Positions 666 to 51,842 of a DNA stretch of 64,000 nucleotides are shown piece by piece. Source of the stretch: Gilliamella apicola (GTDB lineage Bacteria > Pseudomonadota > Gammaproteobacteria > Enterobacterales > Orbaceae). Under the pieces are notes generated by a model that was not told the DNA's origin, made no database searches, and saw only the letters and a program-made list of their open reading frames with translations. A program made the position numbers and the translations under genes. The DNA is taken from positions 1,736,001-1,800,000 of the forward strand of contig NZ_CP007445.1 of NCBI RefSeq assembly GCF_000599985.1. Direction: 5' to 3'. The number at the start of each line of letters is the position of its first letter. Position 1 is the stretch's first letter.

Positions 666-683
666 TATCTTTACCTAAAAAGC

Positions 684-715
684 ATCCCCTTAAAATAAGA
701 TTTTTTTAAGGGGAT
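684..715 (-). terminator. Hairpin between NRPS and phosphopantetheinyl transferase
   Basis: An 11-bp perfect inverted repeat (ATCCCCTTAAA with TTTAAGGGGAT) has a 10-nt loop. On the minus strand it is followed by GCTTTTTAGG, a short U-tract. It would end or attenuate the NRPS transcript before the transferase gene, whose SD starts only a few bases later. Confidence 0.6.
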
Positions 716-729
716 AATTAACATTAAGG

Positions 730-3700
730 TTATAAAATCTGAGCTAAGATCTCTTGTTCATGAGATAAAATTGTGTAGTGATCACAATCTAACTTAACCA
801 GTTTTAATTGAGAATTATTCTGTAAATAAGTATCAATATTATTTAATACATATTTTTCAGCTAAATCTCCACCTTGTTCAATCTGTACAGCTTTAAACAA
901 CACAACTTGAGTCCGTTTCAATTGAGCAGATATTGGCTGTATAACGAGCTTGTTATCAATTTTTGCATAAACCTCAATTTGATCGCGTACATGGGCAGGT
1001 AGATTTAATCGATCCATAGCATGAGTAATGTTTACTGGGTGATTATATTGCTCCAAATCCTGTTCTTTTAATAGCCAAGTGTCTAATAGATAAACTTCTA
1101 TCTTTTCGATTCCTTGCTGCTCAAGTAGTACTGCGATTTGTAATGCAATGTTGCCACCTAAAGACCAACCTAGTAATTTGATTGGCTGATCTTTTGTTGC
1201 AACTTTACTAATATGATCCAGATAATATTGCGCTAATACATTGAGATCCTCAATAGGTTGGTCATGATATAAATTGTAAGAATCTACACCAAAACAGCTG
1301 TATTTTGAGGATAACTTATTCGCTAATGATTGATAAACATCACAACCGCCTAGTCCAGGGTGAATCATAAAAATTTGTGGTTTTTCATGATCAACTCTTA
1401 ATTCCACAATAGGATTAAACTGCTGTTTAGCCGTTGAGATTTTTTTCGCTAATTCCCGAATTGTGTTGACACTTAAAATATCAACTAAACGCATTTTAAC
1501 TTTAAACGCATCATTGATTCGGTTATTAAGCATCATAGCCAAGATACTATTACCACCTAATCGGAAGAAACTATCTTGCATACTAATTTCTTCAGCAGGA
1601 ATTTTAAGGATATTAGCAAGGACTTCACATAATGTTCTTTCAGCATCATTTTCTGGCGCGACATACTCAACCTTATCGGTAAGCTCTGGTTTTGGTAGCG
1701 CTCGACGATTTAACTTACCATTTGAAGTAATTGGTAATTCTATTAAATATATAAATGCTGACGGAATCATATATCCCGGTAAAGTTTCATTTAAATGAGC
1801 TTGTAATAATTGGCTATCAATCTCCTCATTAGCAAGATAATAAGCAACCAAATACTTACTGCCCGAAGCCTGTTCATAAGCGATAACAATGCTATGTTTA
1901 ATTCCATTATACTGGGTTAATCGAGCCTCAATTTCACCAAGTTCAATTCTGAATCCGCGAATTTTAACTTGGAAGTCATTACGACCTAAATACTCAATAT
2001 TACCATCAGCTAAAGAACGAACAAGATCACCAGTTTTATAAATTCGACCATTGTAATCTTGTGCTTTTTCTGCTTCCGTTTGGAAAGGATTAGCAATAAA
2101 ACGTTCATTTGATAATGGAATGTTATTTAGATAACCTCTAGCGACATTATCACCACCGACATACAACTCACCAATTCCGCCAATAGGTACTGGCTGTAAT
2201 AATTCATTAAGAACATAAGCCGAAGTATTAGCAATAGGTTTACCAATTAATACTTGTGAAATATTTGGATTATTACAATCATAATAAAGTACATCAATGG
2301 TTGCTTCTGTTGGTCCATAAAGATTATGTACCTGACAGTTTGGCATCAACACTTGACATTTTTTCACTTCATAAAGATTAAGTGCTTCACCACTACAGAA
2401 CAGATATTTTAATCCCTGAACTTTTGGAACCAAATTAGGTTGCGCTTCTAATGTTTCCACAAATGCAACTAACATAGACGGTACAAAATGTAAGACGGTG
2501 ATTTGTTCAGCTTCAATCAACTCCGCAAGATAGACATTATCTTTATAAAGTTCTGAATGAGCAAACACAATACAAGCACCATACCAATTCGCCCAAAATA
2601 GCTCCCACACCGAGACATCAAAGGTATAGTTTGTTTTTTGTAAAATATGATCCTTTTCAGTAATCGGATATTCGTTATTCATCCAAATAATACGATTAAC
2701 CGCACCTTGGTGCTCTAACATTACACCTTTTGGCTTACCGGTCGTACCACTGGTATAAATCACATAAGCTAAGTTTTTAGGCTGTGCTAATGGCGTTGGG
2801 TTAGTTGTTGAATATATACTCAAGCAATTAATAGTTTGTGAGGATTGCAAGTTCAATGCAACTTGATCTTTAGAAACTAACGAATTGATCTTTTCGTAAC
2901 TTAAGTTAGTCGTTAACACAACCTTAGCTTTGGTATCTTCTATCATATAACTGAGACGATCTTCAGGCATATTAGGATCCATTGGTACATAGGCTCCTCC
3001 TGCCTTCAAAATAGCTAAGATACTTACCAGCATATATTTACATCGTTCAAGACAGATTGCCACCAAATCATCAGGCTGAATATTAAAGTTTACACGCAAA
3101 TAATGTGCTAGCTGATTAGCTTGTTCATTAAGCTCATGATAGGTCAAGCGATCATTTTCATAAACTAAAGCTAAATTATTTGGTGTTTTTAATACTTGTC
3201 TTTCAAACAGTTGATGCATTGTCACATCGGTTGGGTAATTGCAACGCGTCTTATTCCAATCAAAAATCACTTTTTGATAAGTTAAGTTATCAATCAGACG
3301 TAAGTCTGTCAGAGTTTGTTGCTGTTGATACATCTTTGTAAATTGCTGCAAGATTGATTCATAAATAGTGATATAGTGTTCAATCGTCTGCGGCTTATAG
3401 AGTTTAGTAGCATAATTGAACAAGCCAGTTATTGCTGGTTTAGAATCATCAAGCATTACGGTCATATCAAACTTAGCAGCTTGATAACTTGCATTGTCAT
3501 TATAATAACGTTGCAATAAATTATCCTCGTTCCCGTCTTCACCAAATGACTGAACGCCAAACATTACTTGGAAAATAGGATGCCTTGAGGTATCTTTTTC
3601 AATCGATAAAGCATCAACTAAGCGCTCAAATGGTAGATCTTGATATTGTTGAGCTTGTGTAATTAATTCACTGGTCTGCAAAATGAACATTTTTAGGCTC

Positions 3701-6700
3701 TCGCTTGGTTCAATACATTTTCTTAATGCTAATGTATTAACAAAGAAGCCGATGGTATTTTCAGTACCCTGATAATGTCTTCCTGCAATTGGTGAACCAA
3801 TGACAATATCTTTTTGATTGCTAAATGAACTAAGTAGTAAATAGAAACCACTGAGTAGCACAGAATAAACACTAACATTGAGTTCTTTTGCTAAAGAACG
3901 TATTTGTTGGCTGACATCATAATCAAGCTCAAACATGAGATTTTGACCAGTATAATCAATTTGCTGCGGACGAACATAGTCAGTCGGTAAATTAAGCGGT
4001 TCAAAATCAGCTATTTGATCTTGCCAGAACTGCAATTGCTGATTCAAAATATCACCTTGCAAATACTGCCGTTGCCATAAAGCAAAGTCTTTATATTGCA
4101 CTTCGACAGGTGGCAAATTAAGTGCTATCGCTTGATTACTATCACCTAAAGATAAAGCCTCATAGTATTGATATAACTGTCTGAACTCATTAATGAACAG
4201 ATCAATTGACCAACCATCAAATGCAATATGGTGAATCACAATACTCATATAATTTTCTTGAGCTAATTGATAGCGACAAATCGAAATCGGTAACTCATGA
4301 GATAACATGAATACTTTGTATACATGATTATGAATCGCTTTATCTAATTCAGCTTGGCTATCACAATAATGATTTTCGATTGCTAACGGTTGTTGTTGCA
4401 AACTTATCACTTGTTGGTAGGCAACACCATCTGTGGTATTTTTAATTAATGAACGCAATACTTCATGGCGCTGAACAATTTCTTGTAAAGCTTGCTCAAC
4501 AAACGAGATATTAGTCTCTGGCAGAAGTTTAAATACTAATGGTATATTGTATGCGTTGCTACCTCCTTCATAACAATCAATAAACCATAAACGTTCCTGC
4601 GCAAAGGATAATCTCTGTTCTTGTACATTAGCCACCTGTTGTATGGTAATTGATTGACGTTTTTGGTGATTACCTTCAATAAATTTCGCAATGTCCTGAA
4701 TGGTACGATAGGTAAAAATATCCCCTACACGCACATCACGTTCAAAAGTTTTGGCTATTTTACTTGACAATTTAATAGCTAAAATACTGTTACCACCTAA
4801 TCTAAAGAAGTCATCGACCACACTAATTGAGTCGATATCCATATCTAATAGTTCAGCAATATCAGCGACTAACTGCTGTTCAGTCACTGTACTAGGAGCA
4901 ACATAGCTTTCTTGCATAACAAAATTAGGTTTTGGTAATGCTTTACGATCAATTTTACCATTCACATTAACAGGCATAACCGTTAGATGTACAAAGGCTG
5001 CCGGAACCATATATTCAGGTAATGTTTGTTCTAAATAGTTGGTTAATTCAGTCTGATCTATGGCTGTATCAGATACATAATAAGCGGCAAGATATTTATT
5101 ACCTTGATTATTAGTCAGCGCCACAACAAGTACCTGCTTAATTTGAGGATGACTGACTAATCGCGTTTCAATTTCACCTAATTCAATTCTGAAACCGCGG
5201 ATTTTAACCTGAAAATCATTACGACCAATATATTCAATATGACCGTTCGGTAAATAACGAACCAGATCGCCCGTTTTATAAATTCGAGCATTATAATTTT
5301 GCGTTTTTTCCTCACTGGTTTGGAATGGATTTGTGATAAATGACTGATTTGTCAATTCAGGGTTATTTAGATAACCACGACCGACACCCGCACCACCGAT
5401 ATATAATTCTCCAATAACACCTGGAGGCACAGGACGCAAATATTCATCAAGAACATACAAAGTAACGTTTTTAATGGCTTGTCCCAAATCTGTATTTAGG
5501 TCATCTTTACTATAACGATGAGCCATAGCCCAGACAGTCGTTTCACTTGGTCCATAAACATTAATTAACTTGATACCCTGCTGACAATATCGATTCACTA
5601 ATTTAGCATTAACCGCTTCACCCCCCACTGTTAAAACAGGGACTGAAAGCAGATCATCTTGATCGAGTAAAGCTGGTGGGATAAAGGCAAAATCAATATG
5701 TTGATCTTGGGTATATTTTGATAATGCTATAAAGTCTAAACGTTTATCTTCTGACAGAATGTGCAACTGATGACCGTTAAGTAAAGCGTTATATATTTCG
5801 AAAGCATGCGCATCAAAAATATAATTTGAATACCACAGAACATTTTTCTGATCTTGTTCATGATGACTTGGTTGTAGATCTAAAATGTCTTGCTGAACTG
5901 TTGCTAAATTGGCTATCCCATGGTGTTCAATCATCACACCTTTTGGTAGCCCAGTGGTACCACTCGTATAAATAACATACGCCAAATGATGGGCTTTTGT
6001 TGAAGTAACCACATTGTGTTTATCAAACTGTAAAAGTTTGTTAGCCATTGATGGATCATCAACAGCAATAACTTCTGGTTGCAATTCAGTTTTTAATTGG
6101 GTTAATTCTTTAGCATAATGAGCATGAGTTAACACACCTTTCGCTTTAGTATCATTAAGAATTAACTCTATTCGTTCTGCTGGCATGCTTGGACTAATTG
6201 GTACATAAGCAGCCCCAGCTTTAAGCACTGCTAAAATACTTACTATCATGTATTGCGATTTATCTAAATATAACGCAATTAAATCATCAGGTTGAATTGA
6301 TAATTGTGATCGTAAATAATTTGCCAGTTGATTCGCTTGTTCATTCAAACTTTGATAAGTTAATGTTATTCTTTCATAAACAACGGCAATAGAGTCAGGT
6401 GTTTTCTGAACTTGCTCTTCGAACAATTGGCTCACGAGTTTATGATGTTCAAATGGAACGATATTCTTTTGTTGGTTAACGATTAATTGGTCATACTCTT
6501 GCTCAGTTAATAAGTTAAGCTTAGATGCCTCTATAGCTGGATTTTTAGCTAAATGTGTTAAGGTTAATTCTATTCCTTTTAATACACGTTTAATAGCTAA
6601 GTCATTAAAGAGTTCTCCAGCATATTTGATTTTAATCGATAGCTTACCAGCAGCCTCGAAGACCACAATTCCGAGAGGATAATCAAGTTTTTCATGACCG

Positions 6701-9700
6701 CCTTGGAACACAATTTTTAATTCATCTTCTTCACTTTCTGATAATGGATAATTTTCAAATACAAATAATGAATTAAATAGACGTGTACCCGATTTTTGTA
6801 ATTCAATCAGATTAATATTACTGTTATTATTCACATTATTAATATGTGTCTGTAACATTTTGATGGTTTCAATGACGCTACCATCACTATGCTCTAAAAT
6901 TACAGGTAATGTATTAATATAAAGCCCGATAGAATTTTCTATACCGTCAATCGGTAAATTACGACCCGATACTGTCATACCAACAACGGTAGTTTTACTA
7001 TTACCAAAAATGCTTAATTGTTGATGCCAACAATATTGAATCAAAGCATTCAATGTAAACTCATTGTTTTTACATAATGATTTTAATTGTTCACATTGTT
7101 GGGAACCAATCTCTATCGAAATTTCTTGTGAATCTTCAACATATTTATGGTCAGCTAAGTTAATATGCCTTAAATCCCCTTTAAGTAAGCTCTCTAGATT
7201 TTCAGGTTCAAGTTCAACATTAAGGTATTGTTTCCAAAATGATGCTGTCTCATTGGTTTTACTTTGTAAGTAAGATTGTGCAACTAAATAACTGATATCT
7301 TCTTGGATAGTTATCTCTTTTTGATGTAATAAAGCTAAATAATTTTGATGCACATCATTTAGTAAGACAGGTAAACTCCAACCATCCAAAATAGCATGAT
7401 GATTATTAAATAAACATCGATAATTCTCATCAGAACATTTAATTAAGGTCACTCTAAATAGTTGACCTTTCATTAAATCATAACCGATTTGTTCATCTTG
7501 TTTGATTAATTGATTGATACTGACTTGTTGTTGCTCTTGAGTTTGATTACTAAGATCAACAAATTGCCAAACAAAATCAGATTGTTTATCAATAATCTGT
7601 ACCAGTTCTTCCACCCATGAGAAACGTAATCGTAATGATGGGAATTTTTGCTGTGTAAAATGCCATGCTTGTTCAAGCAAATTGATATCCAGTGAATTGT
7701 GATAATCCCAAATCATCTGAATTCGATAAGCATTATCTAAATCTCCCTGCGAAACGGCATGATATATAAACCCTTGCTGTAAACTATTTGCAGGATAAAT
7801 TGCTTCTATTTCTTTATCGTTTTGTAAAGAATTTAGCAGTGTTGGAGAGATCAGGTTATTAATATCAGATTGTGTCAAATAGCTACGATCAATAAGTACT
7901 AATTGATCAATGAGCTCATTAAGCTGCTGAGTAAAGGCCGTAACTAAAGCTTCACCGTGTACATTATTAACGTATCCTGTTATGGCAAATTGTAATTGAT
8001 CATCCAAAATACCGCCATTAACGGATAAAAAGTCAGTCATGCGATTATTAGAAGACATTGCTAAACCACTATCTTCATCGCTAAATCGCCATTTATTAGC
8101 TTTTTCAGTACTATCAAATTGACCTAAATAGTTAAAACTGATCGCCGGTAAAGCTTGTTTAATATAACCTATCAAATAGCCATAACCTACACCATGGTTT
8201 GGTATTTGTCGTAAAGTATCTTTAATCGTAGCAACATTATTAATAACATTATGGTTATTCACCATTAGTTTAACTGGATACATACTGGTAAACCAACCAA
8301 CCGTGTTATTAATATCAATATCAGTGTAGAGATCTTCTCGCCCATGACCCTCTAATAAAATATAGTGATCATTACCACTGAATACCAATTTTAATGCTTG
8401 AGCAAGTGCTGTTAATAAAATATCGTTAATTTCAGTTCCATATACTTTATTAATCTGACTAAGTAAACGAGATGTTTGCGTCTTAGATAGCAGCATTTTG
8501 GTTTGATATAGCGTATCAACACGATATTGATCAAGGTGATTATGATACTGATTAATATCTGCCAATATATTTTGCCAATAAGCAGGTTCTTGTGCATTAG
8601 CAATTAGCGTCGGATATTGCTGTTGTTTATTGACCCATTGACGATAACTACTACCTTTTTCACCTAGAATATCTTTAACATTGATATTGGCATCAACGGA
8701 TGATTGTTGGCTTAAATACTGATAAATAGCTTCTAGATCATCTTTAATGATACGCCAACTTACCGCATCAATATTCAAATGATGCACAGCAACATGGATA
8801 CGTGCAGAATTATCATCAAAACCAGTTAAATAACCAAAATGACATAATGCTCCTTGTTCAAGATTAAAATGACTTTGCCAATCGGTGATTAATTGGTGAA
8901 TCTTATCTTGTGACCAACCAGATATATTTTGCGTAGAAAATGGCAACCTATCAGGAAGTGATTGATAAGTTGCAACTAAATCATGATAATTAACCCGTAA
9001 CATATCGTGATACTCAAGCAATTTTTGTACACTTAGTTTGAGTAAATCAACGTCAAGCATTGGAATTTTAAGTAAAAATGCTTGATTCCAATGGTGATAG
9101 TCTGGGAATCGACCAACTTTAACTTCTTTAAAGAACCACTGTTGAATAGGTGAAAGTTCAAGAGTTCCAGTTAAGATTCCTTGTTCGGTTTCCACACTGA
9201 CTTTCGATTCATGACGATTATTAATCACATGATTGCTTAAAGCTTCTACCGTTCTTAAATTGAAAATATCTTTAATGGAAAGATAATAATTAAGAGCCTG
9301 TTTAATTCGGTTGGTAAGTTGAATACTGCTAATACTGTCCCCACCGAGTTTAAAGAAATCATCATGAATACTGATTTCATTGGCTTGTAAACCAAGTATA
9401 TTGGCAAAGGTTTGACAGAAAATAGCTTCAGTTTCATTTGTAGGACCGACATAGTTTTGCTCATCAAGAAGCTGTGGTATCGGCAACGCCTTACGATCCA
9501 ATTTACCATTCATATTCATTGGCATAGCGTCAAGATGAACAAACGCAGCCGGAATCATATATTCAGGAAGTGATTTCTGTAAATAACCAACAAGTTGCTC
9601 TTGGCTTAATAATTGTTTAGCCACATAATAAGCTGCAATATATTTAGCGCCAGCACTATTTTTCAAAGCTAGCACGGCAGCTTGCTGAATATCAGGATGG

Positions 9701-12700
9701 TTGACTAAACAAGTTTCAATTTCTGCAAGTTCAATTCTAAATCCTCGAATTTTAACTTGGAAATCATTACGACCAATATAATCAATATTGCCATCGGCTA
9801 AATAACGTACTAAATCGCCAGTTTTATAGATTCGTGCATTATAATTTTGCGCCTTTTCGACAACAGTTTGGAATGGATTTTGGATAAATACTTTATCTGT
9901 CAGTTCAGGTTTATGTAAATAACCACGACCAACACCTTCACCACCAATATAAAGTTCACCAATTGCTCCTTCAGGTACAGGACGACGTTGTTCATCTAAA
10001 ATATACAGTGATACATTCGTCAATGCTTTACCGATTGGTACACTGTAATTAAATGGTTCTTGTGCTAAGTTAGTTAAATAAGAAACAGTAAATACAGTGG
10101 TTTCAGTTGGGCCATAAGCATTAACCACATTGACATGCGGATAAAGTTGATGGCACTTATTAACATGATATGCGGATAAAGCTTCACCACCAACGAATAT
10201 GTAATTTAATAATTTTAAATTAGCAACTTCATTATCGACTAATGCATTAAAGAAGGTGGTTGTACAACAGAAATTAGTGATTTTTTTATCAGCAATTAAC
10301 TTGTTAAACTGCTCTAAATCTAAAAATGTCTCTTTTTCAACAATAACCAGTGTCACACCATTAAGTAAAGGAGTGTAGAGATCGTAAACAGAACCGTCGA
10401 ATTGATAACCCGAGATACTGAGTAAACGATCGTCAGAATTGATTTTGACATAATTAGCATTAACAATATAGTTATTAAGATTGTGATGCTCAATCAGCGT
10501 TCCTTTTGGATTTCCCGTTGTTCCACTCGTATAGATAACATAAACTAAATCATGCGGATTCACTTTAATTAAAAGATTATCTTTCGCATAATGTTTTAGA
10601 TTATCGACAAAATCAGCTTGATCAACAGCGAGTACGTATAAATTAGCAGCTAAACCAGTTACTTTATCACAATGATTTTCGGTTGTAAGAACCGCTTTAA
10701 CTTGAGCATCTTGCATTATGAATTCGTTACGTGTATCTGGAGCATTAGGATCCATTGGAACATAAGCTCCACCTGCCTTCAAAATAGCTAAGAAGCAGAT
10801 CAAGATATATTGTGAACGATCAAGATAAAGACCAATCAAATCGTTAGGTTTTATATCAAGGTGTTCTTTCAGGTAACGTGCTAACTGATTGGCTTGCTCA
10901 TTAATTTGTTGATAAGATAGCTCAGTATTTTGGAAAATGACCGCAATATTATCAGGCACTTGCTGAACTTTTTCTTCAAACAATTCTGCAATAGACTTAT
11001 CTCTTGCATAAGGTTGGAATGGTTTATTTTTATCAAAGATTAATTTATTGAAAGTAGCAGCATCAACTAAACGCATTTCAGTTAACGATTGTTCTGACTC
11101 ACACATTTGAGCAAACTGTTCTAAAATAGTTTGATAAATAGTGATGTAGTGCTCAATTGTTTCTTGGCGGTACAATTTGCAAGCATAATTAAATAAACCA
11201 GTAATAGCTGATTTAGAGTCATCAAGCATTACTGTCATATCAAACTTAGCAGATTGATAATTGACAATTTCACTTTGATATAAAGTTAGTAGCTCTTCAG
11301 TTTTACCATTATGTATCGCTGATCCAAATGATTGTACACCAAACATTACTTGAAATATTGGATGCCGTGAAGAATCTTTTTCAATCGCTAATGCATCAAC
11401 TAACCGTTCAAATGGTAAATCTTGATATTGTTGAGCTTGGGTGACTAACTCACTGGTTTGTAAAATGAATGATTTTAAACTATCTTTCGGATCAATACAT
11501 TTACGTAGTGCGATAGTATTAACAAAAAAGCCTATAGTATTTTCAATACCTGAATAATTTCGACCCGCAATTGGAGAACCCACAACCACATCTTTTTGAT
11601 TGCTAAAAGTGCCTAATAATAGATAGAAACCACTCAATAATACCGAATAGACACTCACATTGAGTTCATTAGCTAATGAACGGATTTGTTGACTTATTTG
11701 TTCATTAAGTTCAAAAGAAATATCATGACCAGTGTAATCAATTTCTCTTGGACGCGGATAATCTGTAGGCAGATTAAGTTGTTCAAAATCTTCTAACTGT
11801 CCTTTCCAGAAATTTAATTGATTATTTAAAAAATCACCTTTTAAAAGATTACGTTGCCATAAAGCAAAATCTTTATATTGAACTTCGACTGCTGGTAAAC
11901 GTAATGTTTCAGCATATTGGTTATCTCCTTGAGATAGAGCTGTAACATAATGATAAAGATTGACTAACTCGTCCAAAAAGATATCTGTTGACCAACCATC
12001 AAATGCAATGTGATGAATGACAATGCTTAAGTAACTGTCACCAGCAAATTGATAACAGCAAACATAAATCGGTAATTCTTCGGATAAAATAAATGTTCTA
12101 TGCAGATCCTTATAAATTGCAGATTCAAGTTCCGCTTTGCTTGAACAGTTTTGTTTATTAATATTCCATGGGAATTGTTGTAAATAAATAACTTGTTGAT
12201 AACCAATTCCTTGTGCATTGGTTTTAATTAATGAACGTAAAACTTCATGTCGTTCAATAATTGCGTATATTGCTTTTTCAAGTAGATTAATATTTGTAGT
12301 GCTTGTTAGTTTAAATACTAATGGAACATTATAAGCATTACTACCACCTTCATAAGAATCGATAAACCAAAGACGTTCTTGCGCAAAGGATAATAATTGT
12401 TGCTCAATATGTTCAACCGGCATTACACTAATTACTTGTCTTTTTTCCTGATTCTTATCAATGAATTGAGCTATTTTTTGCGCAGTGCGGAAAGTAAAAA
12501 TATCAGCCACTCTAATTGAACGGTCAAATTCTCGAGTCAATTTACTGGATAATTTGATAGCTAAAATACTATTACCACCTAAACGGAAGAAATCATCAGT
12601 AATACTGATAGCACTCGCTTCAAATCCTAATAAACTAGCGATTGCCTCTACGATTTTATGCTCAGAAGTTGAGCTAGGTGCAACATAGCTAGTTTGGGTC

Positions 12701-15612
12701 AATAGGACTGGTTTTGGTAACGCTCTTTGATCAATTTTACCATTAATCGTCACTGGCATAACGAGTAAATGAGTAAATGTTGAAGGAACCATATATTCAG
12801 GTATCACATTGATTAAATACGTAACCAATTCTGCTGAGTCAATTTCATGATCAGCGACATAATATGCAGCTAAATATTTATAACCACTTTGATTATTTAG
12901 TGCCAATACTGTGGCTTGTTTAATCTGTGGATGCATCATTAAATGCGTTTCGATCTCACCAAGCTCTATACGGAAACCGCGGATTTTTACTTGGAAGTCA
13001 TTACGACCGATATATTCAATATTACCATCAGGCAACAAACGGACTAAATCACCTGTTTTATAGATACGATCATTGTAATTTTGCTTTCGTTCATCTTCTG
13101 TTTGAAATGGATTTTTAATGAACACTTTATTGGTCATCTCAACATTGTTCAGATAACCACGCGCTACCCCTGCACCACCGATATAAAGCTCACCAATACA
13201 GCCAATAGGTAATGGGCGTCTTTGTGGATTCAATACATATACCGATGTATTAGGTAATGGTACACCAATAGGAACATTGTTACCGAAAGATGTTTGACTT
13301 TGATTTGTTAAATAAGTCGTAGCAAGCGTTGTTGTTTCTGTCGGACCATAAGCATTTACGAGGTTAACATTTGGGTATAACTTAAGGAATTTATTTACGT
13401 GAACAGCTGATAAGGCTTCTCCTCCCGCTAGAATATAGCGTAATTTTGCTATATTAGGTAATTGAGCATCAACTAATGTATTGAAAAATGTTGAGATAGC
13501 TAGGAAATTGGTAATATGATATTGCTCAATTAACTGATTAAATTTATCTAAATCTAAGAGATTTTCTTTAGCGGTAATAACGACTCCTGCACCATTGAGT
13601 AAAGCACTGAATATTTCATAGATTGATGCATCAAAATGATATCCTGCAATACATAATATGCGATCTGATTCATCAACTTCGACATAATTAGCATCAACGA
13701 TTAAGCGATTAACACTGTGTTGCTCAATTAAAGTTCCTTTTGGATTTCCCGTTGTTCCGCTAGTATAAATAACATAAGCTAAATCATTTGGTTTAGTTTC
13801 AATAACAGTATTATCTGTTGAATACTTTTGTAAGGTTGCAATAAAGGATGGATCATCAACCGGAACAATTTCAACAGCTGGCATTAACTCATTCAGTTTA
13901 TCAACGTAATGAGAATGTGTAATAACTGCACGAATATGGGCGTCCTCTAAAATATATTTATTACGCTCATCAGGTGCCGTTGGATCGATCGGAACATAAG
14001 CGGCTCCAGATTTAAGCACAGCTAAAATAGCAACAATAATTTGCTCGGTACGATCTAAATAAAGACCAATTAAATCATTTGGTTTGATAGAAAAGTGATC
14101 TTGAAGATAATGAGCAAATTGATTGGCTTTGTTGTTTAATTCAGAATAGGACATCTCAATTTGTTCAAAAAGCACAGCCGTATTGTTTGGTGTTTTTTGG
14201 CATTGTTCTTCAAATAATTGAGCAATTATTTTATCACTCTTATAAGGTTGTTGAGTTTGATTTATATCATGAATTAAAAATTTCAAATCATCTTCATTTA
14301 GTACCTCAATATCATTTACTAAGATATCGGCTTGATCATTACTTAAATAGTTAAGTAATTTTATAAATAGTCTCTGATAGAACATCACAAGTTGTTCAAC
14401 CAGTTGTTTATCTAATTGCTGTTCACTAAATTTAACACGATAGTTAATTCGGTTGTTATGTTCTTCTTGTTCAAACACCAATTTATTAGATAAATCTATT
14501 TGAAATTCATGATTAACCGCTCCATCAATCATCCCATTGAGATTCATTTTATGGTCTCGAACAAAGGTTTGTACAAATGCCACATCCAGAATATTAGCAT
14601 TCTCAGCAAACTGTATAATATCGTAAACTGGTAAGTATTTAGCGCCAGTTTGTTTAACCTTTTTATAATGAAGCAAAATATTTTGTATAACAGACTCTAA
14701 TGTTGAATTTTCTTCAAAATGGTAAACAACAGGTAATGTATTAATATGAGCACCGTAGATTAATTCTTTACCTTCATTAAAAGCAATTGGATAAACAAGA
14801 GGAATTGCGCTTTGAGACGTCATTTTGTTTAATAACAAAGCCATTACCAATTGACCAAATAAATAAGGTGTTATCTTATGTTTACGACGTATTGCTTTAA
14901 CTTGATTATAAATATTCTCATCATAGCTAAAGGTAAATTCACTAATATATGGCTTAAATTGATTTAATTGCTTTGGTTTTTCGGTTGATAACTTTAAGAA
15001 AGTAAAGTCGATATTTTTTACATCTTGTAACTCTTCTTTCCAGAAATCTTCCATCTGCTGTTTTTGCGTTGTTAGAATTTCATGATACGAATCATTAAGT
15101 TTTTCATGCATTTGAGCTTGTTCTTCATATGACGGTAGCTCATAAGGTATATCGTTATAGTATTGACTTAATTTATCCCAAAACTCCTGAGTACTTACTC
15201 CATCAACTAAAATATGATGAAATACTAAAATACTTCGATATTGTTGATGACCGACTTTTACAATATGGAATCGTGCAGGAATCCCTTTCTCTAAATCAAA
15301 GGGCTCCGAAACTATTTTATTGATATCTTCGTTACTTAAGGGGTGATCGTGATAAACTAATAACGATTTTAATTTATCTTCTGTGATTGATTCTCTTTTT
15401 TGCCAAAAAATACCATCTTCATGATTTACAATGAAACTCCTAAAAACAAAATGCTCATTAATAATATTCTTAAAACTTTCAAAAAGTTTTGTTCGATTAA
15501 GTTCTCCAGAGATTATATTATCAGATACAATGTTGTAATCACTTCTTGATGGGTTTGCTAACCATTCGTAATAAAAAATTGATTGATAGGGCGTAAGTTT
15601 TATTTTTTTCAT
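730..15612 (-). CDS. Tetramodular non-ribosomal peptide synthetase, C-A-T-C-A-T-E-C-A-T-C-A-T-TE
   Basis: A 4960-residue assembly line. Approximate domain positions: C1 1-430 (HHILVDG); A1 457-950 (YTSGTTGNPKG near 612); T1 Ser near 1011 (LGGNS); C2 1072-1500 (HHIAFDG); A2 1537-2030; T2 near 2087 (LGGDS); epimerase E 2149-2574 (PIQQWFF, HHLNIDAVSW, EGHGRE, TVGWFTSMYP); C3 2600-3030 (HHAILDG); A3 3057-3540; T3 near 3604; C4 3666-4100; A4 4129-4620; T4 near 4683; thioesterase 4742-4960 with GWSLGG near 4815 and a C-terminal DCDH. All core motifs look intact, so it should be active. Specificity residues read by alignment to GrsA are A1 DAYLLGATL-K, A2 DGYCFGAVF-K, A3 DAFFTGVVW-K and A4 DVWHFSLID-K. 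A4 is one conservative change from the EntF serine code; I do not recognise the others. The E domain puts a D-residue at position 2. A C domain at the N terminus suggests N-acylation of the first residue. The start ATG has a weak SD-like AGGCAAAAAAG. Neither a transporter nor an MbtH gene is visible. Confidence 0.97.
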   Translation of the reverse strand: MKKIKLTPYQSIFYYEWLANPSRSDYNIVSDNIISGELNRTKLFESFKNIINEHFVFRSFIVNHEDGIFWQKRESITEDKLKSLLVYHDHPLSNEDINKIVSEPFDLEKGIPARFHIVKVGHQQYRSILVFHHILVDGVSTQEFWDKLSQYYNDIPYELPSYEEQAQMHEKLNDSYHEILTTQKQQMEDFWKEELQDVKNIDFTFLKLSTEKPKQLNQFKPYISEFTFSYDENIYNQVKAIRRKHKITPYLFGQLVMALLLNKMTSQSAIPLVYPIAFNEGKELIYGAHINTLPVVYHFEENSTLESVIQNILLHYKKVKQTGAKYLPVYDIIQFAENANILDVAFVQTFVRDHKMNLNGMIDGAVNHEFQIDLSNKLVFEQEEHNNRINYRVKFSEQQLDKQLVEQLVMFYQRLFIKLLNYLSNDQADILVNDIEVLNEDDLKFLIHDINQTQQPYKSDKIIAQLFEEQCQKTPNNTAVLFEQIEMSYSELNNKANQFAHYLQDHFSIKPNDLIGLYLDRTEQIIVAILAVLKSGAAYVPIDPTAPDERNKYILEDAHIRAVITHSHYVDKLNELMPAVEIVPVDDPSFIATLQKYSTDNTVIETKPNDLAYVIYTSGTTGNPKGTLIEQHSVNRLIVDANYVEVDESDRILCIAGYHFDASIYEIFSALLNGAGVVITAKENLLDLDKFNQLIEQYHITNFLAISTFFNTLVDAQLPNIAKLRYILAGGEALSAVHVNKFLKLYPNVNLVNAYGPTETTTLATTYLTNQSQTSFGNNVPIGVPLPNTSVYVLNPQRRPLPIGCIGELYIGGAGVARGYLNNVEMTNKVFIKNPFQTEDERKQNYNDRIYKTGDLVRLLPDGNIEYIGRNDFQVKIRGFRIELGEIETHLMMHPQIKQATVLALNNQSGYKYLAAYYVADHEIDSAELVTYLINVIPEYMVPSTFTHLLVMPVTINGKIDQRALPKPVLLTQTSYVAPSSTSEHKIVEAIASLLGFEASAISITDDFFRLGGNSILAIKLSSKLTREFDRSIRVADIFTFRTAQKIAQFIDKNQEKRQVISVMPVEHIEQQLLSFAQERLWFIDSYEGGSNAYNVPLVFKLTSTTNINLLEKAIYAIIERHEVLRSLIKTNAQGIGYQQVIYLQQFPWNINKQNCSSKAELESAIYKDLHRTFILSEELPIYVCCYQFAGDSYLSIVIHHIAFDGWSTDIFLDELVNLYHYVTALSQGDNQYAETLRLPAVEVQYKDFALWQRNLLKGDFLNNQLNFWKGQLEDFEQLNLPTDYPRPREIDYTGHDISFELNEQISQQIRSLANELNVSVYSVLLSGFYLLLGTFSNQKDVVVGSPIAGRNYSGIENTIGFFVNTIALRKCIDPKDSLKSFILQTSELVTQAQQYQDLPFERLVDALAIEKDSSRHPIFQVMFGVQSFGSAIHNGKTEELLTLYQSEIVNYQSAKFDMTVMLDDSKSAITGLFNYACKLYRQETIEHYITIYQTILEQFAQMCESEQSLTEMRLVDAATFNKLIFDKNKPFQPYARDKSIAELFEEKVQQVPDNIAVIFQNTELSYQQINEQANQLARYLKEHLDIKPNDLIGLYLDRSQYILICFLAILKAGGAYVPMDPNAPDTRNEFIMQDAQVKAVLTTENHCDKVTGLAANLYVLAVDQADFVDNLKHYAKDNLLIKVNPHDLVYVIYTSGTTGNPKGTLIEHHNLNNYIVNANYVKINSDDRLLSISGYQFDGSVYDLYTPLLNGVTLVIVEKETFLDLEQFNKLIADKKITNFCCTTTFFNALVDNEVANLKLLNYIFVGGEALSAYHVNKCHQLYPHVNVVNAYGPTETTVFTVSYLTNLAQEPFNYSVPIGKALTNVSLYILDEQRRPVPEGAIGELYIGGEGVGRGYLHKPELTDKVFIQNPFQTVVEKAQNYNARIYKTGDLVRYLADGNIDYIGRNDFQVKIRGFRIELAEIETCLVNHPDIQQAAVLALKNSAGAKYIAAYYVAKQLLSQEQLVGYLQKSLPEYMIPAAFVHLDAMPMNMNGKLDRKALPIPQLLDEQNYVGPTNETEAIFCQTFANILGLQANEISIHDDFFKLGGDSISSIQLTNRIKQALNYYLSIKDIFNLRTVEALSNHVINNRHESKVSVETEQGILTGTLELSPIQQWFFKEVKVGRFPDYHHWNQAFLLKIPMLDVDLLKLSVQKLLEYHDMLRVNYHDLVATYQSLPDRLPFSTQNISGWSQDKIHQLITDWQSHFNLEQGALCHFGYLTGFDDNSARIHVAVHHLNIDAVSWRIIKDDLEAIYQYLSQQSSVDANINVKDILGEKGSSYRQWVNKQQQYPTLIANAQEPAYWQNILADINQYHNHLDQYRVDTLYQTKMLLSKTQTSRLLSQINKVYGTEINDILLTALAQALKLVFSGNDHYILLEGHGREDLYTDIDINNTVGWFTSMYPVKLMVNNHNVINNVATIKDTLRQIPNHGVGYGYLIGYIKQALPAISFNYLGQFDSTEKANKWRFSDEDSGLAMSSNNRMTDFLSVNGGILDDQLQFAITGYVNNVHGEALVTAFTQQLNELIDQLVLIDRSYLTQSDINNLISPTLLNSLQNDKEIEAIYPANSLQQGFIYHAVSQGDLDNAYRIQMIWDYHNSLDINLLEQAWHFTQQKFPSLRLRFSWVEELVQIIDKQSDFVWQFVDLSNQTQEQQQVSINQLIKQDEQIGYDLMKGQLFRVTLIKCSDENYRCLFNNHHAILDGWSLPVLLNDVHQNYLALLHQKEITIQEDISYLVAQSYLQSKTNETASFWKQYLNVELEPENLESLLKGDLRHINLADHKYVEDSQEISIEIGSQQCEQLKSLCKNNEFTLNALIQYCWHQQLSIFGNSKTTVVGMTVSGRNLPIDGIENSIGLYINTLPVILEHSDGSVIETIKMLQTHINNVNNNSNINLIELQKSGTRLFNSLFVFENYPLSESEEDELKIVFQGGHEKLDYPLGIVVFEAAGKLSIKIKYAGELFNDLAIKRVLKGIELTLTHLAKNPAIEASKLNLLTEQEYDQLIVNQQKNIVPFEHHKLVSQLFEEQVQKTPDSIAVVYERITLTYQSLNEQANQLANYLRSQLSIQPDDLIALYLDKSQYMIVSILAVLKAGAAYVPISPSMPAERIELILNDTKAKGVLTHAHYAKELTQLKTELQPEVIAVDDPSMANKLLQFDKHNVVTSTKAHHLAYVIYTSGTTGLPKGVMIEHHGIANLATVQQDILDLQPSHHEQDQKNVLWYSNYIFDAHAFEIYNALLNGHQLHILSEDKRLDFIALSKYTQDQHIDFAFIPPALLDQDDLLSVPVLTVGGEAVNAKLVNRYCQQGIKLINVYGPSETTVWAMAHRYSKDDLNTDLGQAIKNVTLYVLDEYLRPVPPGVIGELYIGGAGVGRGYLNNPELTNQSFITNPFQTSEEKTQNYNARIYKTGDLVRYLPNGHIEYIGRNDFQVKIRGFRIELGEIETRLVSHPQIKQVLVVALTNNQGNKYLAAYYVSDTAIDQTELTNYLEQTLPEYMVPAAFVHLTVMPVNVNGKIDRKALPKPNFVMQESYVAPSTVTEQQLVADIAELLDMDIDSISVVDDFFRLGGNSILAIKLSSKIAKTFERDVRVGDIFTYRTIQDIAKFIEGNHQKRQSITIQQVANVQEQRLSFAQERLWFIDCYEGGSNAYNIPLVFKLLPETNISFVEQALQEIVQRHEVLRSLIKNTTDGVAYQQVISLQQQPLAIENHYCDSQAELDKAIHNHVYKVFMLSHELPISICRYQLAQENYMSIVIHHIAFDGWSIDLFINEFRQLYQYYEALSLGDSNQAIALNLPPVEVQYKDFALWQRQYLQGDILNQQLQFWQDQIADFEPLNLPTDYVRPQQIDYTGQNLMFELDYDVSQQIRSLAKELNVSVYSVLLSGFYLLLSSFSNQKDIVIGSPIAGRHYQGTENTIGFFVNTLALRKCIEPSESLKMFILQTSELITQAQQYQDLPFERLVDALSIEKDTSRHPIFQVMFGVQSFGEDGNEDNLLQRYYNDNASYQAAKFDMTVMLDDSKPAITGLFNYATKLYKPQTIEHYITIYESILQQFTKMYQQQQTLTDLRLIDNLTYQKVIFDWNKTRCNYPTDVTMHQLFERQVLKTPNNLALVYENDRLTYHELNEQANQLAHYLRVNFNIQPDDLVAICLERCKYMLVSILAILKAGGAYVPMDPNMPEDRLSYMIEDTKAKVVLTTNLSYEKINSLVSKDQVALNLQSSQTINCLSIYSTTNPTPLAQPKNLAYVIYTSGTTGKPKGVMLEHQGAVNRIIWMNNEYPITEKDHILQKTNYTFDVSVWELFWANWYGACIVFAHSELYKDNVYLAELIEAEQITVLHFVPSMLVAFVETLEAQPNLVPKVQGLKYLFCSGEALNLYEVKKCQVLMPNCQVHNLYGPTEATIDVLYYDCNNPNISQVLIGKPIANTSAYVLNELLQPVPIGGIGELYVGGDNVARGYLNNIPLSNERFIANPFQTEAEKAQDYNGRIYKTGDLVRSLADGNIEYLGRNDFQVKIRGFRIELGEIEARLTQYNGIKHSIVIAYEQASGSKYLVAYYLANEEIDSQLLQAHLNETLPGYMIPSAFIYLIELPITSNGKLNRRALPKPELTDKVEYVAPENDAERTLCEVLANILKIPAEEISMQDSFFRLGGNSILAMMLNNRINDAFKVKMRLVDILSVNTIRELAKKISTAKQQFNPIVELRVDHEKPQIFMIHPGLGGCDVYQSLANKLSSKYSCFGVDSYNLYHDQPIEDLNVLAQYYLDHISKVATKDQPIKLLGWSLGGNIALQIAVLLEQQGIEKIEVYLLDTWLLKEQDLEQYNHPVNITHAMDRLNLPAHVRDQIEVYAKIDNKLVIQPISAQLKRTQVVLFKAVQIEQGGDLAEKYVLNNIDTYLQNNSQLKLVKLDCDHYTILSHEQEILAQIL

Positions 15613-17769: not shown

Positions 17770-18492
17770 TCACTTCTTTAACCATTTAGGACGCTCGCCC
17801 TTTCCGCAATAAGAATCAATAAGATCGAGTATATGAGAGTACAATTTAAACGAGTTTTTACCAAACATGTTTACAATGTCTTGTTTACTAAATTGACGCC
17901 ATTCACTAACCGAGTGAACCCTCAAATCTACTCTAACCGAGGGAACCCTCAAATCTACTCTAACTTCATCTCCACATATTGAAATAAAACATTTTTCATC
18001 TGATATTATGAATGTTGACTCAGGTAAATAAGTATCTTTCAGTTTGACATTTCTCAGATTAGCATGTAACAAATTGGCACCTCTCAGATCAGTATTTCTC
18101 AGGTCAGCTTCTATCAGGAGGGCAGCTAACAGGTTGGCATCTCTCAGGTTAGCCTCTCTAAGGTCGGCACCTCTTAGATCAACACATCTCATATCAGCAT
18201 TTCTAAAATTGGCATTATTTAGGCTGGCAACTCTTAAGTTGGTCCAACTTAGATCGGCATTACTAAGTTGGGCTCCTCTCAAGTCGGCATATCTCATGTC
18301 GGCATCACTCAGATTAGCTTCCCGCAGATTGGCGTCTCTAAGATCGGCATATCTTAATTTAGCATCGCTCAGATTGATATAACTTAGATTGGAATTACGC
18401 AGGTTGGCATAACTAAGGTCAGCTTGCTCTCCAGATTCGCCATTAGAGTAGATCCAAATTTCATGCTGTTCCAATACTTTTTTAATATCCAT
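17770..18492 (-). CDS. Pentapeptide-repeat protein
   Basis: 240 aa. From about residue 24 to 155 the chain is almost pure A(D/N)LxX repeats (ADLSYANLRNSNLSYINLSD and onward), which fold as a right-handed quadrilateral beta-helix. Family members include DNA-mimicking gyrase-protection proteins, but many have no known role. The C-terminal 80 residues are not repeats. They hold a duplicated nonapeptide (VRVDLRVPS then VRVDLRVHS) and a tail ending KGERPKWLKK. The start ATG has AGGAATAGATA in front. The gene is surrounded by IS remnants, so it was probably carried in. I do not assign a function. Confidence 0.85.
   Translation of the reverse strand: MDIKKVLEQHEIWIYSNGESGEQADLSYANLRNSNLSYINLSDAKLRYADLRDANLREANLSDADMRYADLRGAQLSNADLSWTNLRVASLNNANFRNADMRCVDLRGADLREANLRDANLLAALLIEADLRNTDLRGANLLHANLRNVKLKDTYLPESTFIISDEKCFISICGDEVRVDLRVPSVRVDLRVHSVSEWRQFSKQDIVNMFGKNSFKLYSHILDLIDSYCGKGERPKWLKK
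17906..17959 (-). repeat. 27-bp in-frame tandem duplication
   Basis: Two adjacent 27-bp units, 17906-17932 and 17933-17959, differ at a single base. They encode the repeated nonapeptide VRVDLRV(P/H)S in the tail of the pentapeptide-repeat protein, so the duplication keeps the reading frame. Confidence 0.9.
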
Positions 18493-18534
18493 TATCTATT
18501 CCTAAAATTCTATAAAAAGCCTGATCGTTGCCAA

Positions 18535-18700
18535 AATATTAGAAAGAAGTTACCTGTGTGATTTTGTTGTTTAAGTAATACTGTTTTTCATATTGCGTAG
18601 CAATATAATATCATTGCTGAATGGTGGTCGAATAGAATTATAATAGATCTTAATAAATTCAAATCGTGTTTTATCGGCTAAAACTCTGTTTTGTAATTTC
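18535..18700. repeat. Diverged repeat, copy 2
   Basis: Partner of 17066-17235, on the other side of the pentapeptide-repeat gene. Similarity is patchy but collinear over roughly 160 bp. It is non-coding. Confidence 0.45.
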
Positions 18701-18984
18701 CAAGACCAAAATTTGGGTTTTAATCTATAACAACATCTTTCCGCACCGTATCATCCTAATAATTTTCTTACACTTTGCCTTAATCCATATTACAACAAAA
18801 AATATCCAAAATCAGCACGATAATACTGACTTCCCCGGTAATTTTGAAGTAACACATCTTTAAAGAAATGACAGATAAATAATGCTTGTTTTAATGATAA
18901 CAGACTAAAAGTCGGTGTATATAATGACTCTTTTGAAGACCAACCAATTATATGTTACCCATACAAATTGATATAATTATACAC

Positions 18985-19480
18985 AGATATAATCAGCATT
19001 TACCAGTTTTGATTTAAGTGATATCAGCTACTCAAGCAAAACTTTCTTTGTCGGGATTAAATTGCTTGGCTAACATATTGAGAACAACATCATGGACAAT
19101 ACCCGTATCAATTTTATACTTGAATTTATACTCGGCTTTACTCATAGCCTTTAAGGATTAAACTTACTTTTTCTCTAAGATTTGATATTCTTTATCTCTA
19201 GCATTATGTACTAAACTTGGTACATCTAAATGAGCTTTCTGCAACCAATACTGCTTTTAAGATACTCTTCAAATAATATTGACTGAGGTGGGCTTTTTAG
19301 CTAGGCATAATAACCTGACCAACTCACTTCAAACAATTAGCTGACAAATATTTTCGGATAATAGAATAAATAAGTTTTCATATAATGGTACTTTATCCTC
19401 TTGAATTGTAGATAAAAGCTATGCGTTTTTTTAGAATATCATTCGCCATTTTAATTATTTTGCAAAAACCATAAGCCTTT
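18985..19480 (-). pseudogene. Decayed IS3-family transposase (orfB)
   Basis: Minus-strand fragments match the order of an IS3 OrfB. First comes a broken stretch like GVSWSGYYAWLK (SELVRLLCLAKK in one frame). Then comes YKFKYKIDTGIVHDVVLNML, then AKQFNPDKESFAWVADIT followed by a TAA where WVTDITYI is expected. Several stops and frameshifts are present and the catalytic core beyond the first Asp is missing. This older copy abuts the intact IS element that starts at 19494. Confidence 0.65.
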
Positions 19481-19533
19481 GCTGAACATTAGATGTAAAT
19501 ACCCCATTGTTAGCACACAAACCAAGTAGAAAA

Positions 19534-20358
19534 TCATGCTATTTGCTTCATGTTTCTATATTCAATTGGTGTCATATTATTTAATGCTTCATGCGGTCTT
19601 TCTGTGTTATACATTTCTAACCACTCTTCGGTTATTTTTCTTACTTGTTCCAGATTTTTAAATAAATACAGATCTAATACCTCCGTTCGATATGTGCGGT
19701 TAAATCGTTCTATATAGCCGTTTTGATAAGGACTACCTGGTTTAATATAATCTAGGGTTATTCCATGTGATTTTGCCCAACTTGTAAATCTGTTTGAGGT
19801 AAATTCTGTGCCATTATCAACGCGTATTTTTAATGGATAACCGTGATATTGAGCCAGTCTGTCTAAATAACGGGTAATTCTACCTGCCGATAAACTGACC
19901 GCAATATCAATGCCTAATGCCTCTCGATTAAAGTCATCAATAACATTAAAGGTTCTAAATCGGCGGTGATTTTGAGAACTATCACTCATAAAATCCATTG
20001 ACCAACATTCTCCCAAACGACTTGGTACTGATAATGGCTCTGGATAACGTTGGGGCAATCGTTTATTGCGTTTAGAACGAATATTGAGTTTTAACTGACA
20101 ATAAACTCGATAAATCCGTTTATGATTCCACGTATATCCCAGTTTCCTGATTCGATGAAAACACTTAGGAAATCCCCAACGTAAATGCTTGTCTGTTATT
20201 GACTTAAGTAATGAAATAATCATAGTGTCATCTGCCGATTTAGGTTGATAGTAGTAAGCACAGCGACTTAAATTCACAATAGTGCAACTCATTTTAATTG
20301 TTATACAGTATTGTGACTGTAGTGTTTGTGCCCAACTCTTACGAACTGCCGTCGGCAC
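19534..20358 (-). CDS. IS3-family transposase OrfB (DDE integrase domain)
   Basis: 274 aa with an integrase (rve) core. The catalytic triad is Asp122 (WSMDFMSD), Asp181 (RVDNGTEFTS) and Glu217 (YIERFNRTYR); the end is ERPHEALNNMTPIEY. OrfB supplies strand transfer as the C-terminal part of an OrfAB fusion. The listed start is a GTG whose G is also the last base of the orfA stop (TAGTG). In practice the frame is probably entered by -1 slippage at 20364-20370 upstream. No lesion is seen, so the element may be active. Confidence 0.92.
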   Translation of the reverse strand: MPTAVRKSWAQTLQSQYCITIKMSCTIVNLSRCAYYYQPKSADDTMIISLLKSITDKHLRWGFPKCFHRIRKLGYTWNHKRIYRVYCQLKLNIRSKRNKRLPQRYPEPLSVPSRLGECWSMDFMSDSSQNHRRFRTFNVIDDFNREALGIDIAVSLSAGRITRYLDRLAQYHGYPLKIRVDNGTEFTSNRFTSWAKSHGITLDYIKPGSPYQNGYIERFNRTYRTEVLDLYLFKNLEQVRKITEEWLEMYNTERPHEALNNMTPIEYRNMKQIA

Positions 20359-20615
20359 TATAGCTTTTTTATTATTTCTTGCTGGAGCTGAGAAGTTAAA
20401 CTTAATTCAGCATACATCTGTTTAAGTTTACGATTTTCAGCTTCCAGCTGTTTTAACCGCTTAATGTCCGATGATTGCATACCGCCATATTTATCTCGCC
20501 ATTTATAAAAAGTAGAAACGGCCATACCATATTTACGGCAAAGCTCTTTAATAGGGATACCAACTTCAGCTTCTTTTAAAATGGAGACAATTTGGTGTTC
20601 CGATAATTTTTTCAT
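20358..20615 (-). CDS. IS3-family transposase OrfA (helix-turn-helix)
   Basis: 85 aa. An HTH_Tnp_1 domain (ILKEAEVGIPIKELCRKYGM, then STFYKWRDKYGG) is followed by a leucine-zipper-like coiled coil (LKQLEAENRKLKQMYAEL). OrfA binds the terminal inverted repeats and dimerises. An SD-like AAGGAGAATTTCAAT precedes the ATG. Its last codons carry the slippery sequence that gives OrfAB. Confidence 0.92.
   Translation of the reverse strand: MKKLSEHQIVSILKEAEVGIPIKELCRKYGMAVSTFYKWRDKYGGMQSSDIKRLKQLEAENRKLKQMYAELSLTSQLQQEIIKKL
20364..20370 (-). promoter_or_regulatory. Programmed -1 frameshift site A-AAA-AAG in the IS element
   Basis: In frame with orfA the codons are ATA AAA AAG CTA TAG, so the heptamer A_AAA_AAG sits one codon before the stop. 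After slipping back by one, the ribosome reads GCT ATA GTG CCG directly into orfB. This is the standard IS3-family route to the OrfAB transposase. Confidence 0.85.
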
Positions 20616-27477: not shown

Positions 27478-27954
27478 CTAACATTGAACTGTTTTAATAA
27501 CAGGTTTTGCTTTTGACTTGTGATAACCAAAAAAACAGAGATTATTTTTTAATACTTTTTTACATATTGATTTCATGAGTAAAACTTCATTCAATCCAAA
27601 TGGGCAAAAAAAAGATAAAAGCCATAGTCGTTTTGTTTCATCTTTTTCATTGCATTGGACAAAATTGATATAACTTTTCGTTTTATTTAAATATTGCCAT
27701 TCTTCTTCCTTATTCAAATAAGCCCAATTGAGGTACCCTAATGGCCTATTATTTTTAATCAGTAAAATAAAGTTTTTAGACTGTATGATAGGAAGTAATG
27801 CTTCTAATGCTGAACTTATTGCCGCATTTCGATAATTAGGGTTTCTATTCCATAACCACATGGTGTAGCCTAACACTTCGGATTCATTCCACACGGTATC
27901 TTGATATATATTTGGTGCAATGACTTGGATTGAGTTTTGATTAGAAAAGTTCAT
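27478..27954 (-). CDS. HlyC/RtxC-like toxin-activating acyltransferase homologue lacking catalytic residues
   Basis: 158 aa, aligning along its length to HlyC-family lysine acyltransferases, which acylate RTX toxins. Shared blocks are VLGYTMWLWNRNP (HlyC LGHVSWLWASSP), LLPIIQSKNFILLIKNNRP, YLNWAYLNKEEEWQYLN and RLWLLSFFCPFG. The catalytic His23 of HlyC (SPLHRN) is Tyr41 here (NPNYRN), and Asp92 (FIDWIAPFG) is Ser114. Both are considered essential in HlyC, so the protein is probably not a standard acyltransferase. No RTX toxin gene or secretion genes lie nearby. The gaps on both sides (27174-27477 and 27955-28330) are AT-rich and apparently empty. Confidence 0.75.
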   Translation of the reverse strand: MNFSNQNSIQVIAPNIYQDTVWNESEVLGYTMWLWNRNPNYRNAAISSALEALLPIIQSKNFILLIKNNRPLGYLNWAYLNKEEEWQYLNKTKSYINFVQCNEKDETKRLWLLSFFCPFGLNEVLLMKSICKKVLKNNLCFFGYHKSKAKPVIKTVQC

Positions 27955-48784: not shown

Positions 48785-48828
48785 GTGTTATTTCCTTTAA
48801 TCAGATAAATGAAAAACAAAGTAACAAA

Positions 48829-49041
48829 TTAATCATACTTTTTCAAATGGTTCACCAACACAAATTTACTATGCCAATTAGAGCCATTTAAATCACCGTT
48901 ATGCTCTATTGCTATTATTTTATGGTCACCATTATATTCAGTTAATTTCGATTCAATGCGATCGAGCAAGTCAATACAGTATTGAAGATTGTTTAATTCA
49001 TCAGATGGAGAGCTATCTTTATAACCAAGACAAATGAAAAC
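48829..49041 (-). pseudogene. 3' fragment of a hypothetical gene
   Basis: The minus-strand frame VFICLGYKDSSPSDELNNLQ through LTEYNGDHKIIAIEHNGDLN to VLVNHLKKYD and a stop is clearly protein-like. It has no start codon after the preceding TAA at about 49044. It appears truncated at its junction with the terminase remnant. Confidence 0.45.
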
Positions 49042-49646: not shown

Positions 49647-49666
49647 AATTTACTTGTCTGGTAAAA

Positions 49667-51840: not shown

Positions 51841-51842
51841 TA

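Follow-up and report, generated by a model that had tools for sequence, protein, structure and literature searches.

A one-protein nonribosomal peptide synthetase with a linked phosphopantetheinyl transferase in Gilliamella apicola, predicted to make an acylated tetrapeptide ending in serine

A stretch of 64,000 nucleotides from Gilliamella apicola (contig NZ_CP007445.1; genome positions 1736001-1800000 of a single-contig genome of 3,139,412 bases), referred to as the window, carries a 14.9-kb nonribosomal peptide synthetase (NRPS) gene beside a gene for a phosphopantetheinyl transferase (PPTase). We consider it probable that the two form a complete one-protein assembly line with its adjacent activating enzyme, making an N-acyl-aliphatic-D-aliphatic-aliphatic-Ser tetrapeptide, with a secreted small lipopeptide as the most likely role. 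The analysis followed up an earlier sequence-only reading of the same DNA.

The NRPS gene is a single open reading frame (ORF) of 4960 amino acids, with an ATG start and zero internal stops. Pfam, motifs and PDB matches are concordant on 14 domains in the order C-A-T-C-A-T-E-C-A-T-C-A-T-TE (C, condensation; A, adenylation; T, carrier; E, epimerisation; TE, thioesterase). Pfam returned five Condensation-type matches (four C and the one E domain), four AMP-binding, four AMP-binding_C, four PP-binding and one Thioesterase. In the correct order, the motif scan found five HHxxxD, four each of A3, A5, A7 and A8, four carrier GG(N/D)S and one TE GWSLGG; the pocket alignment shows the A10 lysine in every A domain, the A10 search pattern alone having matched two of the four. 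Matches to PDB structures cover the protein in this domain order. The domain boundaries in Table 1 are approximate from A1 onward. With the C, A and T core motifs in every module and a terminal release domain (Thioesterase match plus GWSLGG), the protein is a type I modular NRPS. The four modules, 14 domains and E domain after module 2 of the sequence-only reading were thus confirmed by Pfam, motif order and PDB tiling.

A condensation-domain search of 60 genomes, 35 of the same genus including the source genome, revealed full-length orthologues in four of the 35 (the source genome G000, G002, G006 and G007), each exactly 4960 amino acids long. Their identities range from 90.2 to 96.2%, and the ratio of nonsynonymous to synonymous divergence (dN/dS) is 0.085-0.12 in all six pairs. 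Judged by these ratios, the NRPS is under purifying selection, and a chance origin of the ORF is excluded because intact orthologues of identical length with such dN/dS values occur in three other genomes. Condensation matches of any kind were present in eight of the 35, the remaining four being G001, G005, G014 and G021; G002 also has a second NRPS locus. In G014 (74% complete) there is a fifth copy, in which residues 1-259 of the first C domain (C1), at 92.7% identity, run into the end of contig C22 and are preceded by the phosphatase gene that also flanks the G000 locus. A scan of a genome collection with C1 gave one locus, in a Gilliamella metagenome-assembled genome (MAG), with 93% identity over residues 1-259, which is the same contig end as G014:C22.

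The PPTase follows the distribution of the NRPS. Its search (E <= 1e-15) matched four of the 60 genomes, the same four as the full NRPS, and none of the 56 others; G014 was scored there as lacking a PPTase, its NRPS ending at the contig end. The gene adjoins the NRPS in all four genomes, with a match over residues 16-221 in G007; in the latter, the PPTase ORF (7769-8398 of L044) is matched from residue 16 onward, although the usual first codons, with an ATG, are found upstream of it. The G006 locus differs from the others in having an aspartate antiporter and an aminotransferase gene as neighbours, not the phosphatase and MatE genes, and G007 is without two other downstream genes found in G000 and G002. 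Since the neighbours vary in this way, the NRPS and PPTase are the part that stays together. The PPTase partner and the two-gene unit proposed earlier are therefore supported by a pairing kept across species and at two different loci.

The PPTase itself was identified by matches to ACPS and AASDHPPT_N. It lies on the same strand as the NRPS, 64 bases past the NRPS stop and outside the interval 730..15612 to which the sequence-only reading had been assigned, with its sense codons wholly inside the window (genome 1736003-1736665). A hairpin followed by a T-run occupies the junction (one found against 0.4 expected; folding z -4.0 in G000) and is nearly identical in all four Gilliamella loci (z -3.1 in G006). 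In a second Orbaceae genus, G083 and G246 have strong junction hairpins of different sequence (z -5.2 and -4.5). The G198 junction has a perfect 10-bp inverted repeat (L068 1361 and 1384) before the next likely PPTase start, the ORF as listed beginning at the earliest start, and the stretch overall folds no better than its shuffles (z -1.0). The hairpin may reduce PPTase output relative to the NRPS. Elsewhere in the genome, a second PPTase-like gene encodes 205 amino acids (L008:1213-1830); a typical AcpS was not seen in the genome, the remaining ACPS-family match being a weak 58-aa frame.

In a C-domain tree of seven proteins, C1 branches as a clade separate from C2/C4, C3 and E. Its xHxxxDG motif is kept in 31 of 31 aligned proteins and is diagnostic of C1, the first His of HHxxxD being replaced in the C1 of some relatives. 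As in a starter C domain, C1 is N-terminal and has no module upstream. Family searches of the genome found no other complete C-A-T module; the rest of the genome holds one 156-aa C fragment, one 102-aa carrier frame, taken as the fatty-acid acyl carrier protein (ACP), and two other AMP-binding frames. Since no other complete module was found, C1 presumably accepts an acyl donor, most likely a fatty one. By single sequence, its top PDB matches are SrfA-C chains (43 bits), and its profile match to the RzmA starter C domain is about 30 bits. Fold comparison did not separate the C subtypes, SrfA-C being among the tied top rows, and no special closeness to the RzmA starter was seen by profile or fold.

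Ten pocket residues per A domain (Table 1) were read from an alignment anchored on the A1 motifs. All four codes are identical in G000, G002 and G007, while G006 differs at A1 (DAYLLAACLK) and A2 (DGYFLGGVFK). The A4 pocket DVWHFSLIDK is a Ser code, and Ser as the last residue, as had been claimed earlier, agrees with it. Elsewhere in the family, the same columns returned codes for Thr (DFWNIGMVHK), near Gly (DILQLGVIWK), Phe (DAWTIAAVCK) and Tyr (DASTVAAVCK), which supports the pocket extraction. The A1-A3 pockets are hydrophobic, the precise residues 1 and 2 being uncertain; the A1 of two relatives, P0004 and P0005, is DAYFLGGTFK, which is nearer to Val/Ile codes. The E domain after T2 should convert residue 2 to the D form, so that the predicted residues are hydrophobic-(D)hydrophobic-aliphatic-Ser.

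On this basis, the PPTase would turn the four carrier domains into their holo form, and C1 would couple a non-peptidyl acyl donor, most likely fatty acyl from acyl-ACP or acyl-coenzyme A (acyl-CoA), to residue 1. A1-A3 are predicted from their pockets to load hydrophobic, probably branched-chain residues, residue 2 would be epimerised, and A4 would load Ser. The TE would then free the chain as the free acid, or as a small lactone if the acyl group carries a 3-hydroxyl, giving the N-acylated tetrapeptide named above. Its use as a secreted small lipopeptide for competition or surface life in the gut is the weakest step of the proposal.

In place of a fatty acid, C1 might accept an acyl-CoA that is short or aromatic, or a different small acid, and the product would then be a capped hydrophobic tetrapeptide, for example a protease inhibitor or signal. 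We regard this as unlikely. C1 is far from the solved lipo-starter domains, and phenylacetyl-CoA can be used by starter C domains (PMC11546977); however, according to the same paper, surfactin, lichenysin, fengycin and arthrofactin receive their acyl group from beta-hydroxy fatty acids, and the genes examined around the locus include none dedicated to acyl-CoA supply. The last module is similar to EntF in having T and TE after an A domain that activates Ser (PDB 5ja1 match), and the NCBIfam EntF model scores 1551 bits against a cut-off of 2400. Even so, a siderophore synthetase, whose peptide or Ser would bear an iron-binding group as in enterobactin, is highly improbable: three of the residues are hydrophobic, no hydroxamate, catechol or TonB-receptor gene was found in the neighbouring genes covered (19 in the source genome, four in G006, three in G002 and one in G007), and a TonB-receptor locus, apparently decayed, sits elsewhere in the genome.

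The synonymous divergence (dS) of the NRPS is 0.17 between G000 and G002 and 0.46 for both G000/G007 and G002/G007, lower than the values for three flanking genes in these pairs (0.27-0.49, 0.54-0.70 and 0.52-0.72, respectively). This may point to exchange between species, only three genes having been compared. Together with the patchy occurrence (four of 35 same-genus genomes) and the different locus in G006, it would also suit an intact but idle gene, a recently spread passenger without current product. We give this possibility very little credence, as dN/dS is about 0.1 over 4960 codons, the length is unchanged in four genomes, and the PPTase dS for G000/G002 (0.36) falls within the flanking-gene values and not below them. 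An empty site, sought via two flanking genes in 34 genomes, was not found, the pairs without the unit lying on different contigs or far apart. A plasmid search with C1 gave 172 records, all below 60% identity (20.6-23.8% among the 20 rows listed), and therefore no near plasmid relative in that collection. No transporter, receptor or immunity gene was common to all loci among the flanking genes examined.

The C1 query matched 1014 proteins, of which the best 120 were listed and the first 30 (P0003-P0032) examined for module order; the motif patterns missed some single motifs in relatives, e.g. A8 of A3 in P0008 and A5 of A4 in P0022. The order of the window NRPS recurs in 11 of the 30 (P0003-P0008, P0013, P0017-P0019 and P0022), including Entomomonas asaccharolytica (P0007) and Orbus wheelerorum (P0008). 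Overall identity to the window NRPS was measured for ten of these and is 46.5-80.5%; P0003, without a whole-length figure, is 98% identical in C1 and taken as the Gilliamella cluster. Position 4 is Ser in ten of the 11 and Thr-like in P0022. Four further proteins (P0009, P0010, P0011 and P0015) have five modules, with a Tyr-like first module plus E, and their last code is also of Ser type. Relatives of C1 are present in Serratia and Chryseobacterium, so this type of C1 extends beyond insect bacteria. An order-wide C1 search (E <= 1e-20) matched ten of 394 genomes, seven Orbaceae at 47-100% and three others at 25-27% identity. In the second Orbaceae genus, the PPTase adjoins three of five NRPS copies, G083 and G198 each having two NRPSs and one linked PPTase. 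The midpoint-rooted protein tree places Entomomonas as sister to the group of P0006 and Orbaceae (support 93). This neither shows nor excludes horizontal transfer into Entomomonas, while the patchiness favours transfer.

An A-domain tree points to exchange within individual synthetases. In three of the 12 four-module proteins treed (P0006, P0007 and P0008), A1 is sister to the A2 of its own protein; A1s and A2s are separate in the window lineage, which includes P0004 and P0005, as well as in P0018/P0022, and P0013/P0017 are unresolved. A4 groups by position, as does A3 within the P0001-P0008 group. In P0006, A1 and A2 are 90.8% identical, against 63.2% between the A1 domains of P0006 and P0008 and 54.2% between A1 and A2 of the window NRPS. 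A constraint test with five proteins rejected an all-A1 clade and an all-A2 clade (p-AU 0.002 and 0.007, p-values that are post hoc, the groups having been chosen after the first A-domain tree). In the C-domain tree, C2 groups with the C4 of its own protein in P0007, P0013 and P0017; the C rows of P0004, P0018 and P0022 were excluded from that tree and the P0005_C4 row was ignored (extra HHxxxD in A3). NRPS evolution is known to involve domain exchange of this kind. It is conceivable, as a tentative proposal, that these synthetases define an undescribed class of small acyl-peptides from unrelated insect-gut bacteria (Orbaceae and Entomomonas), made by a one-protein synthetase with a private initiating C-domain type, in which selection acts on the terminal Ser and on the similarity between residues 1 and 2, which A1-A2 recombination would have re-established in several lineages. 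If true, the repeated residue 1/2 pair could change together between host lineages.

Table 1. Positions within the window of the NRPS, its domains, the junction hairpin and the PPTase.
Feature	Position	Strand	Evidence or remark
NRPS gene, 4960 aa, C-A-T-C-A-T-E-C-A-T-C-A-T-TE	730..15612	-	ORF, Pfam, motifs, PDB
C1, divergent first condensation domain, residues about 1-450, motif LTPYQSIFYYEWLANPSRSDYN + HHILVDG; presumed starter C	14263..15612	-	
A1, pocket DAYLLGATLK, hydrophobic/aliphatic residue predicted	12718..14235	-	
T1, LGGNS	12463..12690	-	Pfam, motif
C2, clusters with C4, LCL position	11038..12411	-	Pfam, motif, tree
A2, pocket DGYCFGAVFK, hydrophobic residue predicted	9469..11025	-	
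T2, LGGDS	9229..9450	-	Pfam, motif
E, epimerisation domain, HHLNIDAVSW	7843..9165	-	Pfam, motif, PDB
C3, DCL position, own clade	6475..7815	-	Pfam, motif, tree
A3, pocket DAFFTGVVWK, branched aliphatic predicted	4921..6441	-	
T3, LGGNS	4663..4905	-	Pfam, motif
C4	3259..4629	-	Pfam, motif, tree
A4, pocket DVWHFSLIDK, Ser	1693..3225	-	
T4, LGGNS	1438..1650	-	Pfam, motif
TE, type I thioesterase, GWSLGG	733..1395	-	Pfam, motif
Hairpin then T-run in the NRPS-PPTase junction; resembles an attenuator or terminator	683..716	-	
Sfp-type PPTase, 221 aa	1..665	-	last stop-codon base outside window

Several other loci were noted in the genome and the genus. The apparently decayed siderophore-type locus (L082:4758-10952; genome 1516757-1522951) contains a TonB receptor divided between two overlapping frames, together with a condensation-type fragment of 156 aa that has 30-31% identity to two G021 NRPSs; after this fragment come two exporter-like ORFs, the first an ABC (ATP-binding cassette) exporter by Pfam. 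G021, another genome of the genus, carries a different, multi-protein NRPS cluster (L045-L047, contig C18). Within the window, a pentapeptide-repeat protein beside a two-ORF, IS3-like transposase lies upstream of the NRPS unit (17770-20615), an HlyC-type acyltransferase (RTX toxin acyltransferase family) occupies 27478-27954 with no RTX gene among the ten genes scanned with it, and Mu-like prophage genes (Gam-like protein, transposition protein and transposase pieces) extend over 48128-62128 on the reverse strand.

NRPS clusters in Gilliamella have already been published as class counts. In the accessible text of a bee-gut survey of 744 clusters in 477 genomes, NRPSs make up 34.9% of the Gilliamella clusters and are among the most frequent classes (PMC10673953); in that of two other papers, NRPSs are among the most abundant cluster types, mainly in Apis-derived genomes (PMC9598484), and nine NRPS clusters are counted in Gilliamella, Orbus and Entomomonas MAGs combined (PMC12282196). 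The view in the sequence-only reading that an Orbaceae-like lineage is an unusual NRPS source is not supported by these antiSMASH surveys. Its suggestion of a possibly new metabolite is compatible with the few MIBiG links of the first survey, in which, in the text available, nearly no bee-gut cluster matched MIBiG and only Paenibacillus larvae clusters were linked (PMC10673953); the dedicated signal, inhibitor or surfactant role that it also suggested is speculation. In the literature searched, supplementary files aside, no description of the synthetase, its product or the cross-genus family was found, and as far as searched the family is uncharacterised. The honeybee-gut symbiont Frischella perrara, which occurs alongside Gilliamella, carries a colibactin (clb) island, according to the part of the source available (PMC12990990). 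Colibactin is made by a hybrid island of NRPS and polyketide synthase (PKS) genes, whereas Pfam found no PKS domain in the 4960-aa NRPS.

With one 14.9-kb gene and its PPTase, the assembly line is compact and open to experiment, in a bee-gut genus grown in culture (PMC10673953). Should the peptide be produced in the gut, it would be a defined molecule for probing competition and settling of Gilliamella strains that differ in carriage of the unit. Moreover, the family forms a natural series for studying domain exchange inside one NRPS gene.

Close counterparts in other genera are the Orbus wheelerorum and Entomomonas asaccharolytica synthetases, with 4946 and 4961 amino acids, 60 and 62% whole-length identity, the same 14-domain order by motifs and Ser at position 4. 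Their A1/A2 pockets (DAYFLGVTFK/DAYFIGATFK in P0008; DAYFLGVTYK in both domains of P0007) differ from DAYLLGATLK/DGYCFGAVFK in the window, and we know of no product for either. The layout of one NRPS and one PPTase is also that of AusA/AusB (aureusimine), AusB being the best NCBIfam match of the PPTase, at 66.6 bits against a cut-off of 225. The AusA model reaches 2567 against a cut-off of 2500, a score that adds up five partial matches along a protein of twice its length. AusA itself has two modules and releases its product by a reductase, whereas the window NRPS has four modules, an E domain and a TE, and membership of the AusA/AusB system was rejected on the module count and the TE in place of a reductase. 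The surfactin, fengycin, arthrofactin and rhizomide synthetases begin with a C domain, are multimodular and release through a TE, as does the window NRPS. Of these starter-C lipopeptide systems, surfactin provides the top PDB match of C1 by single sequence, SrfA-C, whose condensation domain is itself not a starter. The window NRPS differs from them in that its C1 forms a separate, divergent clade and that the whole assembly line is one protein with a linked PPTase.
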